A program made the position numbers and the translations under genes. Positions 35,320 through 43,394 of a stretch of DNA of 64,000 nt are shown piece after piece; position 1 is the stretch's first letter; each line of letters opens with the position of its first letter. The stretch is from Methanolobus sp. GTDB taxonomy: Archaea; Halobacteriota; Methanosarcinia; Methanosarcinales; Methanosarcinaceae. The notes under the pieces were generated by a model. The model worked only from the letters and a program-made list of their open reading frames with translations. It searched no databases and had not been told where the DNA came from. The DNA is taken from the NCBI RefSeq assembly GCF_016278385.1, contig NZ_JADQBY010000030.1, forward strand, positions 1 through 64,000, in the 5' to 3' direction.

Positions 35320-35520
35320 ACCTTCAAGTTCATTTATGGCAGGATCCATTAAATCCGTTTGTAGTAATTAGGTTTATAACGAATAAATGATTGCTAAAAG
35401 GGGTTTATTCACATTCTTATTATTTATTTAACCCCATTTTAAGCATTTTATTTGGTTTAGACTCTGTAAAATATTAAAATAGTACTATGATTGTTACTAA
35501 CATGGTTAATCAGGATTGAT

Positions 35521-35740
35521 ATGACAAGATTAAGGATTATCGCAGACAATAACGGACATCTGCATAAACTTCACTGGATGCCCTGAAATTTGTGGCAACG
35601 TACTGTATGCCTTATATCAATCCTGAAGTAGTCCTCAAGCATTTTACCTTGGGCAACGCCTGTTCATGGGCAACCTATGAGATAGCATGAGCACATTACG
35701 AGAAATACAGAAACTCATTCAGGTTTGTAGAAATCTCCAT
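35521..35740 (+). pseudogene. Decayed coding relic in the gatD-surface-protein spacer
   Basis: Within the 586-base spacer 35320-35905 a short frame from ATG 35521 stops after 21 codons, while another frame reads DALKFVATYCMPYINPEVVL and continues for some 30 more codons with plausible residue use before a TGA, and then a little further. This looks like a degenerate gene or transposase tail, but I do not recognise the family. The rest of the spacer is AT-rich promoter sequence for the next gene. Confidence 0.25.
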
Positions 35741-35905
35741 ATTAACAATAAGCACAACTTTGACATACATATCTAGTCTAGTTTGCACTATCACTTGAAT
35801 GAAAAATTCTACAAAAGAACAATACAGAATATATAAGAAATGTGATACAATCTCAAAAAAAATAAGAACTATTATTTCATGTTATCAGTAATAGTCATTT
35901 GAGAG

Positions 35906-36592
35906 GTGGTAATTATTTTAAAGAATAAATTGAATACCTTAAAGTTTTGCATATGTTTAATTTGTGCAATACTGCTTGTGAGTAACACAACTTGTGCGCT
36001 AGGAAATACTTCTGTAAATGAAAGTTCTTCAAATGAAACAACAACGACAACAACTCAAGACATTGAAGAAAGCGTTGCAGGTAAATTCCGTCTTGCACCA
36101 TCTGTAAGTTTAACATCAACAAAAAATACAGTTGAGACGACTGACCCGGCACTTATTAGCTTGTCAATGATTAATCCTTCTGTTAATGATGTAAACCTGG
36201 CAGTCGATGTTATCATAAAGGCACCAAGCGGAGTATATGTCACTGCAACAAGCTTTGCAAGCAGTGGTTCTAATCAGAATATAGGGAACTTTATCGTCAG
36301 ACCCGGAGAAGAGAACCACGTAACAATTCAAATAACTTCAACAGAAATAGGTGAGAAAGCGCTGGAATCCCAGGTAATCTACTATCCAGAAGGTAATAAA
36401 GACGAGTACAGAATGCTTCAACAGACCATGTCCGTTTTTGTCGAAGAGAAATCAGAAGAAATACCTCCTGAAGCAGTGGAAGAAGAAGATGAAGAAAACG
36501 AAGACAATGGCCAGATAGTCATTCCTGGTTTCTCATTTGTTACTTCTATAGCCTGCTTATCTATCGCCTTATTCTTGTTTAGAAGAAAATAA
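35906..36592 (+). CDS. PGF-CTERM surface protein A (minimal copy)
   Basis: Secreted protein of about 228 residues. A signal peptide (hydrophobic CICLICAILLVSNTTCA) is followed by a Thr/Ser-rich linker, a roughly 115-residue beta-rich domain (FRLAPSVSLTSTKNTVETTD onward, about 61-175), an acidic linker of Glu/Asp repeats and a C-terminal sorting signal (IPGFSFVTSIACLSIALFLF, then basic). PGF-CTERM proteins are cut and lipid-anchored by archaeosortase A. GTG at 35906 is the only usual start near the signal peptide, but the GAGAGGTGG site overlaps it, so a start a few codons later (non-ATG) is possible. The central 287 bases are identical to part of surface protein B. It is followed after 20 bases by a polytopic partner gene. 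Confidence 0.82.
   Translation: MVIILKNKLNTLKFCICLICAILLVSNTTCALGNTSVNESSSNETTTTTTQDIEESVAGKFRLAPSVSLTSTKNTVETTDPALISLSMINPSVNDVNLAVDVIIKAPSGVYVTATSFASSGSNQNIGNFIVRPGEENHVTIQITSTEIGEKALESQVIYYPEGNKDEYRMLQQTMSVFVEEKSEEIPPEAVEEEDEENEDNGQIVIPGFSFVTSIACLSIALFLFRRK
36086..36372 (+). repeat. 287-bp perfect direct repeat, copy 1
   Basis: Base-for-base identical to 39019-39305 by direct comparison, with divergence starting immediately on both sides. It encodes most of the shared membrane-proximal domain of surface proteins A and B. Confidence 0.95.
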
Positions 36593-36612
36593 ATTTTGAT
36601 GATGTGATATGA

Positions 36613-37620
36613 TTGGCAAATGCAGAGATTGGTATCATTAGTCTCTTACTGATACCTTTTTATTTTTTACTTGTGATACTTTCTCTGCTAGCAATTCAAA
36701 ATATTTTAATAAGTAAAACAAATCACCATTTGACCTGTATCTCTTATAAACACCCCTGTCTTTATAGATCAATGAATTGGTGGGCAGTTTTCGTTCAAGA
36801 ATTAAGCCATGCGATAATTGCTTTTCTTACTAAGAATGAAGTAAAGGAATTCAAAGTAACTTCAAAGGGAGGACATGTTATTCATGAAAATAGTCGCAAA
36901 TCCGGATTTTTTCAGTGGTTGGCAAATCAAGCAATAAGTGCAGCACCCTCTTTAGTTCCACCCCTTTTTGCAATGTTTTTCTTCCTAAAATTTGAATATA
37001 TTAATCTGTCTGAATCATCAATTGTTTTTAACTCTCTGGAATACACATACATTTTCTCTAATTTATATCTCATGCAACTTCCAGTTTTGATCGAAACATT
37101 AGGTTCAATGATAATTAATCTGAATTTAATAGATATCAATGATCTAATAATAGTAATCATGCTAATTTTTTCATTCTCTGCTGCAACTCCAAGTTCAATC
37201 AAAAAAGAAGAATATGGAATTCAGGGAGATCTCCAATCAATTATAGAAAGATTCAGTACATACCCTATATTCACAATTTATTTTATTTTGCTGCTTGTTG
37301 TTCTTTTTTGGACACTTGTATATTTTAATATAAACCTATTAATGTTGATTATTATTTTTTTGATGCTGCTGCCAATAGTATCCCTTTACGGATTGTTATT
37401 GAATATATTATTCACAAAAATTGTATATATGGCTGACAAGGTCCCCCTTCTTGTTTCAATTGGGGCTATTTTTATTTCAATTGTCTATTACATCTATTCC
37501 CCTTATTTTCTGGCAAGGCAATCTACTACAAACATTACAAGCCTGATTTTGTTAGTATCAATTTTAAAATTAGGCAGTACAGGTAAAATAAAAAGGTTCT
37601 TCTCAGTATTATGTGAATAA
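36613..37620 (+). CDS. Polytopic membrane protein with degenerate HExxH (QELSH) motif
   Basis: Membrane protein of 335 residues with about seven helices and a TTG start preceded by GTGAT. After the first helix, the second carries FVQELSHAIIAFL (QELSH at 62-66), exactly where M50-type intramembrane metalloproteases have HELSH, followed by a GG-containing strand (KVTSKGGHVIHE). The Glu and second His are kept but the first zinc ligand is Gln. The decayed sister copy at 39517-39990 encodes HELSH at this place. Its position 20 bases after surface protein A, repeated in the second copy, suggests a dedicated partner in processing or anchoring. Family membership is inferred from the motif and topology. 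Confidence 0.7.
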   Translation: MANAEIGIISLLLIPFYFLLVILSLLAIQNILISKTNHHLTCISYKHPCLYRSMNWWAVFVQELSHAIIAFLTKNEVKEFKVTSKGGHVIHENSRKSGFFQWLANQAISAAPSLVPPLFAMFFFLKFEYINLSESSIVFNSLEYTYIFSNLYLMQLPVLIETLGSMIINLNLIDINDLIIVIMLIFSFSAATPSSIKKEEYGIQGDLQSIIERFSTYPIFTIYFILLLVVLFWTLVYFNINLLMLIIIFLMLLPIVSLYGLLLNILFTKIVYMADKVPLLVSIGAIFISIVYYIYSPYFLARQSTTNITSLILLVSILKLGSTGKIKRFFSVLCE

Positions 37621-37887
37621 ATTTGCATAATATTGGATTAAATACTTTTGAAAAATTGGTTGTTGAGGTTGATTTGGATATACTTCATCCTTGATGTTTC
37701 TTTGCATTCCCATCACAGAAACTGTAAGCTTATAGGTAATTATTGTATATTTTGAATAAAAAAAACAAATCGAAAAGCATAAATCCAGTTACATAGCAAA
37801 TCTGATATTGCTTATAACCACAAAGAATAAGATTTCAAATATACATAACTGGTTTATAAATGTAATATAAAAGATGAGTGTGTGTCA

Positions 37888-39516
37888 ATGATAGATAAAA
37901 GTAAATTGCATAAATATTCTACAGGAATACTATTGATATCTATGCTTTGTATCGTTACCATCTCCATGATTGGAACAGCAAGTGCTAATAGTGTCGCAAG
38001 TCCTACGGTCACAAAGACAGCATCGCCGAGTGATATCAATATTGCTGGCAGTGGTACAAATGAGATTACTACTGTAACAATAACAGCCACAGGAGCAGGA
38101 AACACAACTACAACGTCAGTGCCCCTTGATATTGTATTTACAATCGACAGCTCTGGAAGCATGGAGTCGAGTGATCCTTCAAATCTTCGTTTACAAGCTG
38201 CAAACGACTTTATCGACAAGATGGAACCAACCAAAGATGCAGCAGGTGTTGTCAGCTGGGACGACGATATTGATTTTACTCAGGCTTTGACCAGTAATTT
38301 TGCCGATGCAAAAAGCTCTGTAAATGGTGTGAATAGGGAGGGAAACACGGACCTTTCTATTGGTCTGGCTGAAGCAATAAATATTTTAGATGCGAATACA
38401 AAAACAGAAAAATCTGCAGAGGTAATTATCTTTCTCAGTGATGGAGAGGGAGATTATAGCCATGCAATTGCACAGAGTGCTGCTGACAAAGGATACACCA
38501 TATACAGTATTGGATTGGGAGATTCTGTTAATGTAACAAATCTAGAAGATATGAGCACCACAACTGGCGGAACATATTATTCAGCACCAACTGCAGAAAC
38601 TCTTGATGCAATTTTCAACAATATATTAACTGAGGTGACCACTTCTACTATACCACAATACGTGGACGTTATCGAAGTAACTCAGAAATATATTATTGAA
38701 GAAGGTTCTTTTAACGTTGAACCAGATAGTGTCGTTACGGATGATAGCACCGGAATTACGACAATCACCTGGAATAATATTGGTTTGATTAAAGACAACG
38801 AACCAGATTTATCTAATGATGAAAAGGTAGTCTTATCGTTCAATGCAAAGTCAGACCAGAGTGGAAGTAATCTGGGTATTGATGTTTTAGGAACTGCAAA
38901 AGTATGCTATAAGGACATTGATGGAAACAATGCAGATTGTGTGGATATCCCTCAGGCCTATATTAACGTAGAAGCAAAAACAACAACCCAAAATGTTGAA
39001 GAAACCGTAACAGATACATTCCGTCTTGCACCATCTGTAAGTTTAACATCAACAAAAAATACAGTTGAGACGACTGACCCGGCACTTATTAGCTTGTCAA
39101 TGATTAATCCTTCTGTTAATGATGTAAACCTGGCAGTCGATGTTATCATAAAGGCACCAAGCGGAGTATATGTCACTGCAACAAGCTTTGCAAGCAGTGG
39201 TTCTAATCAGAATATAGGGAACTTTATCGTCAGACCCGGAGAAGAGAACCACGTAACAATTCAAATAACTTCAACAGAAATAGGTGAGAAAGCGCTGGAA
39301 TCCCAAGTAATATACTATCCAGAAGGCAATAAAGAAGAGTACAGAATGCTTCAACAGACCATGCCATTTTTTGTCGAAGAAAAATCAGAAGAAATTACTC
39401 CTGAGCCAGTGGAAGAGGAGACAGAAAGCCAGAGCCAGATAGTCATTCCAGGCTTCTCGTTTGCAACTTCTATTGCCTGCTTAGCTATCGCATTGTTCCT
39501 GTTTAAAATAAAATAG
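37888..39516 (+). CDS. VWA-domain PGF-CTERM surface protein B
   Basis: Secreted, anchored protein of about 542 residues. The ATG at 37888 is preferred over GTG two codons earlier; GATGAG lies upstream. A signal peptide (ILLISMLCIVTISMIGTASA) is followed by a von Willebrand A domain (about 80-250) with a complete MIDAS: FTIDSSGSM, the Thr in EGNTDLSIG and the Asp in FLSDGEGD. A beta-sandwich region (about 255-365) of DUF11-like character follows, then the same 115-residue domain as in protein A, an acidic linker and PGF-CTERM (IPGFSFATSIACLAIALFLF). VWA surface proteins usually mediate metal-dependent adhesion or protein binding. Downstream lies the relic of a polytopic partner gene. Confidence 0.9.
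   Translation: MIDKSKLHKYSTGILLISMLCIVTISMIGTASANSVASPTVTKTASPSDINIAGSGTNEITTVTITATGAGNTTTTSVPLDIVFTIDSSGSMESSDPSNLRLQAANDFIDKMEPTKDAAGVVSWDDDIDFTQALTSNFADAKSSVNGVNREGNTDLSIGLAEAINILDANTKTEKSAEVIIFLSDGEGDYSHAIAQSAADKGYTIYSIGLGDSVNVTNLEDMSTTTGGTYYSAPTAETLDAIFNNILTEVTTSTIPQYVDVIEVTQKYIIEEGSFNVEPDSVVTDDSTGITTITWNNIGLIKDNEPDLSNDEKVVLSFNAKSDQSGSNLGIDVLGTAKVCYKDIDGNNADCVDIPQAYINVEAKTTTQNVEETVTDTFRLAPSVSLTSTKNTVETTDPALISLSMINPSVNDVNLAVDVIIKAPSGVYVTATSFASSGSNQNIGNFIVRPGEENHVTIQITSTEIGEKALESQVIYYPEGNKEEYRMLQQTMPFFVEEKSEEITPEPVEEETESQSQIVIPGFSFATSIACLAIALFLFKIK
39019..39305 (+). repeat. 287-bp perfect direct repeat, copy 2
   Basis: Identical to 36086-36372. It lies inside the VWA surface protein gene, 2933 bases downstream of copy 1. 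Confidence 0.95.
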
Positions 39517-39810
39517 ATTTTGATGATGCGATATTCCGGCAAATTCAAAGATTGGTATCATTAATCTTTTATTGATACCTTTCTCCTTTTTTAATATACC
39601 TTCGCTCTTATCAACTCATAATTTTGTAGTAAGAAAACAAACAAAATTTGATATGTATCTCTATAGCATCCTTTTCACTATGATCAATAATTTATAGGGC
39701 AGTTTCATTCATGAATTAAGCCATTCAATAATTACATTGGTAACTAATATTGCCCATACTTTTTGGCAAGGATATTTACTATAAACATCACAAGCCTTAT
39801 TTTATTAATA

Positions 39811-39818
39811 GTAGTTAA
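39811..39818. repeat. 8-bp target-site duplication, left copy
   Basis: GTAGTTAA, repeated exactly at 39951-39958 on the other side of the inserted element. Confidence 0.85.
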
Positions 39819-39950
39819 GGCTCTGTAGAAATCCTCCAAATTCAAACAATAATGCAAGTCAATAAAACTTCTGTATGTTGTTCTGAATGGTGATTATTTT
39901 TGTTGAATTTTAGCTATACATAGTGATTTCAATGTGTTTTCTACAGAGCC
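39819..39950. mobile_element. 132-bp MITE-like element
   Basis: It starts GGCTCTGTAGAAATCCTC and ends in the inverted TTTTCTACAGAGCC, giving 13-base perfect terminal inverted repeats (14 when the outer shared bases are considered with the A/A mismatch). An exact 8-bp duplication flanks it. No open frame of note lies inside. The two ends match solo termini elsewhere in the window (L-type near 52592-52610; R-type at 1-53 and 43191-43229), so a full-length relative must supply or have supplied transposase. The 8-bp duplication and the GGC-CTGT terminus suggest an IS6-like origin, which is inference. Confidence 0.85.
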
Positions 39951-39958
39951 GTAGTTAA
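39951..39958. repeat. 8-bp target-site duplication, right copy
   Basis: GTAGTTAA, the partner of 39811-39818. Removing one copy plus the element restores a sequence that aligns with the intact sister gene. Confidence 0.85.
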
Positions 39959-39995
39959 GGTAAAATAAAAAGAATTGATGGTTAACAACCATCAA

Positions 39996-42719
39996 TTAAC
40001 GCTTATTAACTCTTCTTAACAGAAGAACTATTAGAAGTAAACCAACAGTTGAAGTCACTCCTGTGAATCCTGGCACAGGATTAGTGAGGACTGACCCGGG
40101 AGATGGATCAACTGGATCTGTGGAAGACCTAAGTTTATCTGTCACTTCAAGTATAAGCTCGTCTCCTTGAGATTGTGGAGTTTCGCCGGAAATTGAATAA
40201 TGTACTTCTGATATGATGGAATGAGTCCCGGGTTCGTTACCCTGAATATTAAATGACATGTACTTTACTTCGTCTCCAGGTTCAACTGTATAACTGGCAG
40301 TATACATACCGGCTCCTGATTCTGCAAAAGAGCTGCCTGAAACACAGGTCCCATCTGGAGCTTTAAGTATCATTTGAACATCCATAGGGAGATTACCAAT
40401 CGGATTAAGCACACTTAAAGTGAATACTGCATAATCCCCTACACTGATAGTGTCTTTGGTAGCCTGGAATAAAACCTCTGGTCCTCTTTTTGATACAGGC
40501 AATTGTACTTCTTTAGAACTGGAGTGTACATTCATATCTTTATCATTTGCAGTGAAACTGACTACGTGGTTCCCATCACTTAGAACAGGAGTGATTGTTG
40601 AATATGAACCTGCTGATGTATAAGAATCAATTTCCTTTCCATCAAGTTTACAGATTATTTTTCCGATTCCACTGTCATCTGTAACTGAATATGATATTTT
40701 GACTTTTTCACCCTCTTCCAATATCTTATCGTCATCACCAATTACCTCCAGATTTCCAATGATAATATTCGGAGCTGTTTTATCCTCTACTTTTAGTACC
40801 ATATATTCAGTTGACGGATAACTTTCAACGTGTATCAAAGCATTTTCTTCGTAGTAACCGTTCTTTGATACTTTTAGCATAATATCTGTATTTTTGTCAA
40901 CATCGGCAGTTACAACTCCGTCAATGTCGGTAACATCCACAAATTCATCGGCTAAATATACCATTGCATTACTTAATGCTTTACCGGTCTCGTCTTTTAC
41001 ATTTACCGTAACAGGAATCTTTACATAATTCAGGTAAATCATAACGTCTCTGTATGCATCATAACCAGCATTTACTGTTTCAAATTTTGGCTCATAGCCT
41101 GACTTCTCTGCATTCAGCAAATAACTGGTTCCTTCTGTTACCTGAGTAGTTAACTTTCCACTTGAATCGGTCTGTCCGATCAAATTCCCATCTAAGTAAA
41201 TATCAGTATTTCCCAGATATGTGGAATCACTGCTATCTTTAACTGTAATCACTAAATCTAAATTATCTGAGGGTACTGCGGGTGGTATAACTGGATCACC
41301 GTCATCTCCTCCATTATTTGCATTGATTGTAACGATTGTAGATGCTGCATCTGACCACTTACCATTACTGTCCTGTACACTGAAATATATTGTATGTGTT
41401 CCGGCAGAAAGATCTGATGTGCTGAAACTTGCAGATGTACTTAATTGTCCATCGTAGCTGGAAGTCCATTTATAGGCAACAATTTTACCATTTGTAGTAG
41501 TACCGGTTCCTGAAAATGAAACAGATGTACCTTCAGTTGCAGAGTTAGGAGTAATTGAAGTTATAGTTGATTCAACAACATGATTAATTACATCGAATGA
41601 ATATTCATTGACATAGAATCCCTGTTGATCAGTTTTTGAAGAGGAAGAGGGATTTCGTATATAATTTGCAACATCTTTTTCCCTGAGGGTAGTCCTTACA
41701 TAAAATCTCAGCTCAGAAGCCCCTTCATTTACTTCTACTTTAATTGTGAGAGTTTCAGTTTGTCCACTGTCCCAATTATCATCATAAAGTTGAACAAGTG
41801 GATTAATTGCTGTTATTGTTGAACTAGTACTTGTAACAAGCGAACTTCCCACAGGGAATAATTTGTTTTGATTACTACCTGTGCCGCTTACCTCTATAAT
41901 ATCTTCATTATCAGGGAAAGAAACAGCAATGAATCCGATATTTGACGGACCACCTGTATTTTTCACGGATATTTTTATCGTGGCAACATCACCTGCATAT
42001 AGACCATAAGATGGGGCGACTACAACATTCGTAATTTCAGGGAATGGAAGAGATGGAGCTTCACTTATGAATTCAGAAGAAGGAACGAATGAATCTTCAT
42101 TTGAATCTTCATTTAAATCTTCATTTATGAATTTTGAATCAGCATTTAATGAATCGTCCTCACTCACATCGAATGAATATTCATTGACATAGAATCCCTG
42201 TTGATCAGTTTTTGAAGAGGAAGAGGGATTTCGTATATAATTTGCAACATCTTTTTCCCTGAGGGTAGTCCTTACATAAAATCTCAGCTCAGAAGCCCCT
42301 TCATTTACTTCTACTTTAATTGTGAGAGTTTCAGTTTGTCCACTGTCCCAATTATCATCATAAAGTTGAACAAGTGGATTAATTGCTGTTATTGTTGAAC
42401 TAGTACTTGTAACAAGCGAACTTCCCACAGGGAATAATTTGTTTTGATTACTACCTGTGCCGCTTACCTCTATAATATCTTCATTATCAGGGAAAGAAAC
42501 AGCAATGAATCCGATATTTGACGGACCACCTGTATTTTTCACGGATATTTTTATCGTGGCAACATCACCTGCATAGAGGTCTTGTGGTTCTACCACAACA
42601 CTTGTGATTTCTGGAAAAGGAACTGAAGTTTCGTCAGTTCCATCTGCTGCTACAGAACAATTTGTCAATACTACCAAGATAAAAAGACTACACATCCCTA
42701 ATCCAATCCAAGACCTCAT
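39996..42719 (-). CDS. Large PGF-CTERM surface protein C with internal duplicated domains
   Basis: Secreted, anchored protein of about 907 residues. The start at 42719 (MRSWIGLGMC) is supported by GGTGGT upstream; the frame opening at 42752 adds 11 residues before the signal peptide. Two copies of a beta-sandwich domain with CARDB-like look (each about 150 residues, FPEITSVVVEPQDLYAGDVA in the first) are nearly identical. A PKD-like domain, two carboxypeptidase-regulatory-like repeats, an Ig-like repeat and the membrane-proximal domain shared with proteins A and B (about 743-865) follow. It ends PVPGFTGVTSTVGLLLIVLL plus basic residues, a PGF-CTERM sorting signal. It is convergent with the A/B cluster. 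Likely an S-layer-associated or adhesive protein. Confidence 0.9.
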   Translation of the reverse strand: MRSWIGLGMCSLFILVVLTNCSVAADGTDETSVPFPEITSVVVEPQDLYAGDVATIKISVKNTGGPSNIGFIAVSFPDNEDIIEVSGTGSNQNKLFPVGSSLVTSTSSTITAINPLVQLYDDNWDSGQTETLTIKVEVNEGASELRFYVRTTLREKDVANYIRNPSSSSKTDQQGFYVNEYSFDVSEDDSLNADSKFINEDLNEDSNEDSFVPSSEFISEAPSLPFPEITNVVVAPSYGLYAGDVATIKISVKNTGGPSNIGFIAVSFPDNEDIIEVSGTGSNQNKLFPVGSSLVTSTSSTITAINPLVQLYDDNWDSGQTETLTIKVEVNEGASELRFYVRTTLREKDVANYIRNPSSSSKTDQQGFYVNEYSFDVINHVVESTITSITPNSATEGTSVSFSGTGTTTNGKIVAYKWTSSYDGQLSTSASFSTSDLSAGTHTIYFSVQDSNGKWSDAASTIVTINANNGGDDGDPVIPPAVPSDNLDLVITVKDSSDSTYLGNTDIYLDGNLIGQTDSSGKLTTQVTEGTSYLLNAEKSGYEPKFETVNAGYDAYRDVMIYLNYVKIPVTVNVKDETGKALSNAMVYLADEFVDVTDIDGVVTADVDKNTDIMLKVSKNGYYEENALIHVESYPSTEYMVLKVEDKTAPNIIIGNLEVIGDDDKILEEGEKVKISYSVTDDSGIGKIICKLDGKEIDSYTSAGSYSTITPVLSDGNHVVSFTANDKDMNVHSSSKEVQLPVSKRGPEVLFQATKDTISVGDYAVFTLSVLNPIGNLPMDVQMILKAPDGTCVSGSSFAESGAGMYTASYTVEPGDEVKYMSFNIQGNEPGTHSIISEVHYSISGETPQSQGDELILEVTDKLRSSTDPVDPSPGSVLTNPVPGFTGVTSTVGLLLIVLLLRRVNKR
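41590..41999 (-). repeat. 410-bp perfect internal repeat, downstream copy
   Basis: Identical by direct comparison to 42166-42575 (offset 576 bases). It encodes the second copy of the duplicated beta-sandwich domain in surface protein C. Confidence 0.93.
42166..42575 (-). repeat. 410-bp perfect internal repeat, upstream copy
   Basis: Identical to 41590-41999. The 166 bases between the copies encode an Asn/Asp/Glu/Ser-rich linker with a short tandem (NEDSNEDSF) and the non-duplicated start of the second domain. Confidence 0.93.
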
Positions 42720-43190
42720 ATCATAACCACCATCTATTGTTGTCTTACTCATTAAATGCGTTAGACTAATTGGATATAAAATAGCTCTATCAAATATTGG
42801 TCTTGCCAGTTAGAATATTTCATTTGTGATTTCAACACAGTTTAACTAATTCGAGGATCAAAGTTTCAATAATATTTCCAGCATAAAAGTAGACCTCCAC
42901 TATATCTCCCTTTCAATCTGGAATAAAAACACTAAAATACCCTTTTATTTGTTATGTGAATATAGGTGTCCACATTCAATTTAAACTGATGTTATTTTTA
43001 TTATTCATCCAGCCTTTGATATCAATTATATTGCTTTACAAATCCAATCTATACACCATTTTGAGTCTTAACTGTTTCAAAATAAAAGTGGAAAAAGTAG
43101 AATATAAGGTTTTCTATTTTAATTTTAAAGAGATTACAAAATTAAACATTCAATAACCCTTATGAATAATATTTAAAAAATCTAAAAAAT

Positions 43191-43229
43191 GGCTCTGTAG
43201 AAAACCTATTTCATATTTTATTTTGACAT
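43191..43229 (+). mobile_element. Solo insertion-sequence end (R-type)
   Basis: GGCTCTGTAGAAAACCTATT and the following bases match the minus strand of 1-53 over 39 positions with two mismatches. No partner terminus was seen to its right before aspS, so it is a relic. It sits upstream of the aspS promoter (TTTATATAG near 43244). The remaining spacer 42753-43190 is AT-rich; a 66-codon frame at 42956-43156 has no ribosome site and low-complexity composition. Confidence 0.55.
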
Positions 43230-43394
43230 CTTTTATCACCTTATTTATATAGTCACATACTAGTACTATAGTATACATTTAGGGACTAAAAAACGATTCA
43301 CAAACCTTTATAATGAATAAATTAGGTATTGAAGCAAATCAGTTATTTCAATTATATATTTAATTCAATGTTTAACGTCAAATAAGGTGAATAT

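Follow-up and report, generated by a model that had tools for sequence, protein, structure and literature searches.

Is the polytopic, metalloprotease-like protein encoded directly behind a surface-protein gene of Methanolobus sp. a dedicated partner of that surface protein, and what does a glutamine in place of the first histidine of its zinc motif imply for its activity? The window that we analyzed, a stretch of 64,000 nucleotides, lies on contig C17 of a methanogen genome of 2.88 Mb from the order Methanosarcinales, the species being represented by this one genome. On its forward strand, an open reading frame at 35906-36592 encodes surface protein A, which has a signal-like N-terminal stretch, an Ig-like domain, and a PGF-type C-terminal tail. 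After a gap of 20 nt comes the polytopic gene (36613-37620, forward strand), which starts with TTG and encodes 335 amino acids, including QELSH at residues 62-66 (codons CAA GAA TTA AGC CAT at 36796-36810, codon 62 being CAA). The initial annotation of this locus had described a surface-protein gene followed by a polytopic gene, and its coordinates, the spacing, and the position of QELSH are all correct. A TTG start is also found in the closest relative of the polytopic gene, which is carried by a second genome of the genus (G005).

The annotation had proposed that the polytopic protein is related to M50 proteases, and a profile search bears this out, since the protein scores 27.3 bits with PF13398 (Peptidase_M50B), just over the cut-off of 26. 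In 186 genomes of Methanosarcinales, a profile search recovered 14 full-length family members, with relatives in Methanoperedens and Methanosarcinaceae, and all 14 match PF13398 (best E value 2.4e-9). A 393-genome sample of the phylum added one more relative, which is truncated (G264). Scanning contigs with a single sequence gave no match, while scanning with the alignment gave 11 loci, and we found no close relative of the M50B protein on plasmids or viral contigs. When the profile of the window family was compared with that of one distant M50B protein, the two matched with a probability of 95% and an E value of 3e-8, with QELSH falling on HEFSH. The family resembles Peptidase_M50B, a member of the site-2-protease clan, in being polytopic, in having HExxH in the relatives of the window protein, and in sharing a PS...D motif and Asp206 with distant M50B proteins. 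Compared with the ordinary S2P proteins of the genus, however, just 34 columns near HExxH align (E value 3e-4), and the family lacks the canonical NxxPxxPMDGG motif. A sequence search against solved structures gave no match. In two AlphaFold models (pLDDT 74 and 77) the zinc motif lies in a long helix that is followed by a beta hairpin, and in Foldseek searches SpoIVFB and MjS2P come out at or close to the top, with E values of 0.18 to 0.8 and TM scores of approximately 0.2. Since these structural matches are not significant, it is by sequence comparison that the window protein is confirmed as a relative of the M50B metalloproteases.

The state of the zinc site can be read from the same comparisons. 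In an alignment of the 14 family members, His62 is present in 13, all of which have HELSH or HEFSH, and glutamine is found in the window protein only, while Glu63, His66, and Asp206 are invariant. With four distant M50B proteins (22-25% identity) added, His62 is present in 17 of 18 sequences and Glu63, His66, and Asp206 in all 18. QELSH thus aligns with the HExxH of other M50B proteins, as expected by the annotation if it lies on the active-site helix, and the window protein is alone among the 18 in lacking the histidine that the annotation had taken for a lost first zinc ligand. The PS...D motif of the distant M50B proteins falls on Asp206 in the joint alignment, which makes Asp206 the candidate third zinc ligand; Asp197 (in SSID) was considered for this role and ruled out, given that its column holds D, K, N, R, or S. 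The window protein accordingly differs from Peptidase_M50B in a single predicted zinc ligand, His62, whose loss the alignments show. On the basis of established knowledge of M50 enzymes, we infer that the QELSH protein is most likely inactive as a protease; its intact relatives are presumed to be active.

Apart from H62Q, we observed no sign that the QELSH gene is an old pseudogene under relaxed selection. Its end branch measures 1.00, compared with 1.03 for the intact G005 gene, and it differs at 9 of 69 otherwise invariant columns, compared with 6 of 66 for the G005 gene. The frame of 335 codons contains no stop, while base-shuffled copies average 23.5, and the differences between the window and G005 genes amount to 44, 25, and 57% at the three codon positions, which is the pattern of a coding gene. 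Taken together, these results indicate constraint on the gene until recent times. H62Q could be a first step of decay, taken either after or before the loss of the second copy described below, or it could be a change tolerated by a protein that needs no catalysis.

This second copy lies behind surface gene B (37882-39516, forward strand), in which a von Willebrand factor type A domain (PF00092, VWA; E value 2.5e-16) is fused to the same Ig-like domain as that of A and to a PGF-type tail. The annotation's report of a decayed homologue that retains HELSH held up. The remnant spans 39539-39849 on the forward strand, starting at about 39539, and is detectable as residues 2-74 (E value 1.1e-5) and 291-328 (E value 4.7e-4); it contains stops and lacks most of its middle, and it still encodes HELSH at 39709-39723 (FIHELSH at 39703-39723). 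A search of the genome with the polytopic protein gave three matches only, namely the intact gene and the two remnant segments. Copy B is broken by an internal deletion and by the insertion of a 132-bp MITE-like element at 39819-39950, which has 13-bp inverted ends (GGCTCTGTAGAAA) and an 8-bp direct repeat (GTAGTTAA). The element recurs in near-identical form on contigs C22 and C21 and in diverged form elsewhere in the genome.

The surface proteins A and B are 88% identical over 178 aligned amino acids. A 288-bp tract of A (36085-36372, forward strand) is identical to 39018-39305 in B, while the DNA around it, including the flanks and the starts of the two genes, is approximately 75-90% identical. 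This similarity is too extensive to be due to chance. Such a block of identity amid less similar DNA is the pattern expected if the shared Ig-like domain underwent gene conversion, or else very recent copying. Through most of the C-terminal domain A and B are identical, and the domain is 74% identical to its G005 counterpart. The shared domain has no Pfam or NCBIfam match above cut-off, and no close relative of the surface protein was found in phages. A third surface gene, convergent with the other two (39996-42752, reverse strand), encodes a protein of 918 amino acids with a C-terminal domain and PGF-type tail like those of A and B. The annotation's identification of PGF-CTERM tails stands in part. 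A PGF motif, a hydrophobic stretch, and a basic end are visible by eye in the tails of A (IPGFSF...RRK) and B (IPGFSF...KIK), and PGF is invariant in an alignment of the surface-protein C-termini. However, no tail reaches the cut-off of the curated PGF-CTERM model, TIGR04126, to which the large protein scores 12.1 bits against a cut-off of 24.5 and A and B give no match. Archaeosortase A is encoded in the genome (TIGR04125, 269.9 bits against a cut-off of 75).

Loci that are mobile and combine large and small Ig-domain surface genes with genes for membrane proteins have been described both for the VARTIG modules and for Methanosarcinales (PMC8416519), and the window resembles them in these respects. 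The homogenization of C-terminal Ig domains by recombination that is reported for the Methanosarcinales loci fits the 288-bp tract. Membership in the VARTIG modules is ruled out, as those are restricted to Thermococcales and have a hypervariable C-terminal domain, whereas the C-terminal domain here is homogenized. The terms M50 and metalloprotease are absent from the main text of that report.

All of these genes lie within a genomic island of about 7.9 kb between gatD and aspS (35389-43306), whose junctions were located by blastn of the flanks against four relatives. In G004, G002, and G005, gatD and aspS adjoin, indicating that the 7.9 kb were inserted in the window genome (G000). At both edges of the island is a near-identical 16-bp repeat, TTTATAA[C/T]GAATAAAT (35373-35388 and 43307-43322), which possibly arose by duplication on insertion. 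The 16-bp repeat also resembles the aspS promoter region. The G005 island has the same order of three genes as the window: a small surface protein, an M50B protein, and a convergent large surface protein. Its small surface protein is 68% identical to A over residues 13-227 of A and is encoded 16 nt upstream of the M50B gene; the M50B protein is 46% identical to that of the window and has HELSH as its zinc motif; and the large surface protein (L007 4111-7662) is 49% identical to its window counterpart over 469 amino acids. The G005 island has a TSUP-type gene on one side and an isocitrate-dehydrogenase-like gene on the other, a spot occupied by only about 145 bp in G002. Since the loci differ and both genomes carry an insertion, the island moves as a unit. 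A close surface protein and an M50B gene occur together in these two genomes only, among 27 of the genus, and with a sensitive profile one further genome matches marginally (E value 3.8e-4). By AspRS, G004 is much closer to the window genome than G005 is (98% compared with 92%), yet G004 has neither the close surface protein nor the M50B gene. The edge of the G005 island also carries a second leuA-like copy, a partial one from the 3' end (L007 3079-3677), which is about 80% identical to the leuA genes of relatives and suggests that the island came to G005 from a species in which it lies between leuA and the dehydrogenase gene. In another genome (G016), the gatD-aspS spacer (L096 8078-11320) has an insert of its own, about 3.2 kb long and distinct from the island; it encodes proteins that look secreted, one of which resembles a C39-type peptidase. 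This spacer may be an insertion hotspot.

The annotation had inferred that the surface protein and the protease-like protein form a dedicated pair. The link is real, in that it recurs in G005, but it is local: in a survey of gene neighborhoods, 2 of the 14 full-length M50B genes adjoin such a surface-protein gene, and both are in the same genus. At the other 12 full-length loci, mostly of Methanoperedens, the stretch examined contained no gene encoding the shared domain, and in Methanoperedens the M50B gene mostly precedes a gene for a 160-amino-acid protein and a kinase-like gene. The truncated relative in G264, which belongs to another family of the phylum, is the C-terminal half of an M50B gene (L218 6451-8043), and 9 bp separate its end from a convergent surface gene that has the shared domain. 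As a single case among about a dozen loci, this adjacency is suggestive but falls short of proof, because such surface genes are numerous in these archaea. The shared surface domain is present in about 79 of the 186 genomes of the order, often in adjacent genes, one small and one large; members of the M50B family are present in 14 of them. Most genomes with the surface domain thus have no M50B gene, so that a dedicated pair does not hold as a general rule; the larger conserved unit is the small and large surface proteins together, to which the protease is occasionally added as a third component. At loci L203-L214, distributed through Methanosarcinales, the shared domain is found in adjoining small (about 240 amino acids) and large (450-1100 amino acids) surface genes, and at L208, L209, and L212 surface-protein genes alternate with ATPase-like genes that have a GPINSGKT motif.

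We know of no M50 version of a tagged surface protein paired with an intramembrane protease. Such pairs have been described for rhomboid and CPBP proteases, namely GlyGly-CTERM with rhombosortase (PMC3237569) and JDVT-CTERM with MrtJ and MYXO-CTERM with MrtX, the JDVT-CTERM and MrtJ genes being adjacent (PMC11980579). The window likewise has a surface protein with a tripartite tail next to an intramembrane protease gene, and one reading is that the M50B protein would process the tail of its neighbor for sorting or shedding, as in these systems. The adjacency and joint movement in two species and the truncated G264 gene speak for it. We nevertheless consider it quite improbable, given the 12 full-length members without such a neighbor, the carriers of the surface domain that mostly lack an M50B gene, and tails that resemble ordinary PGF tails in a genome that encodes archaeosortase A; the protease family also differs from those of the known pairs, and the pairing is seen in two species only. 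Conversely, the M50B gene could be a functionally unrelated passenger in a recombining surface-protein island. The 12 unlinked members and the recombination of Methanosarcinales surface loci (PMC8416519) agree with this reading, which is credible but doubtful, as gene order, orientation, and a spacing of 16-20 nt are retained in two species despite a 54% difference between their M50B proteins, and as the G264 gene adds a third, truncated case. The glutamine itself might be a sequencing or assembly error, or a variant private to the strain, in an otherwise ordinary M50B protease. A single base (CAT to CAA) separates the two states, the rest of the frame is undamaged, and one genome represents the species; but the nearby sequence gives no hint of error, and single-base errors are rare in assemblies of such quality, making this reading very improbable.

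A further reading takes the QELSH protein for a folded, noncatalytic partner of surface protein A, acting as a chaperone or in quality control or anchoring. Its open frame, its constraint matching that of the intact G005 gene, the codon-position pattern, and the retention of Glu63, His66, and Asp206 are all consistent with such a pseudoprotease, and EGY3, an S2P-family pseudoprotease of plants that stabilizes a partner, provides a precedent (PMC9795235). EGY3, however, is a chloroplast protein conserved through plants, whereas the window case concerns one species and one residue, with HExxH kept in 13 of the 14 family members, and the dead sister copy in the same genome suggests that a function is being lost. 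A pseudoprotease or chaperone role is thus possible but not favored, and on balance unlikely, as it depends on one genome and as loss of function fits the sequences as well or better. There is a slim chance that the island's own M50B enzyme was dedicated to tagged proteins and that its now dead form still binds the surface protein, which would make it an archaeal S2P-type pseudoprotease that works with substrates of archaeosortase.

A recent loss of function explains the findings more simply, and we favor it over a pseudoprotease role because both copies are damaged, one in its zinc site and the other throughout the gene, while all relatives keep the site. With slightly better than even confidence, we propose that an island of archaeosortase-type surface proteins, comprising a small surface protein, an M50B metalloprotease, and a convergent large surface protein, travels horizontally, and that its small-protein/protease unit was duplicated in the window species. 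Where the island is intact, the M50B enzyme would cleave a membrane-tethered segment within the membrane, the most plausible substrate perhaps being the C-terminal helix, or a leftover signal helix, of the neighboring surface protein. This guess at the substrate is weak because 12 full-length relatives have no surface-protein neighbor. In the window species the second protease copy would have become a pseudogene, and the remaining copy would have lost His62 by one base change and be most likely catalytically dead, either through recent loss of function or, less likely, as a retained pseudoprotease. That the QELSH gene is not visibly decaying and that the fold search is below significance count against this explanation. 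The protease belongs to a known family whose pairing with surface proteins is clear in two species only, and the copy with the altered zinc site more closely resembles a broken enzyme than an established innovation. Even for Haloferax, archaeal M50 proteases are listed without a known function (PMC9263693), and an intact copy (G005) and a ligand-lost copy (the window), each 16-20 nt behind a tagged surface protein, offer a natural pair for a substrate test. If the M50B enzyme acts on no surface protein, it would be a plain decaying accessory gene.

The start codon of surface gene A is uncertain. The GTG at 35906 falls inside a GAGGTGG ribosome-binding site, and no well-spaced ATG, GTG, or TTG follows GAGGTGG either in surface gene A (35900-35935) or in its G005 homologue (L007 9330-9370). 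An ATT or ATA start is possible for both genes.
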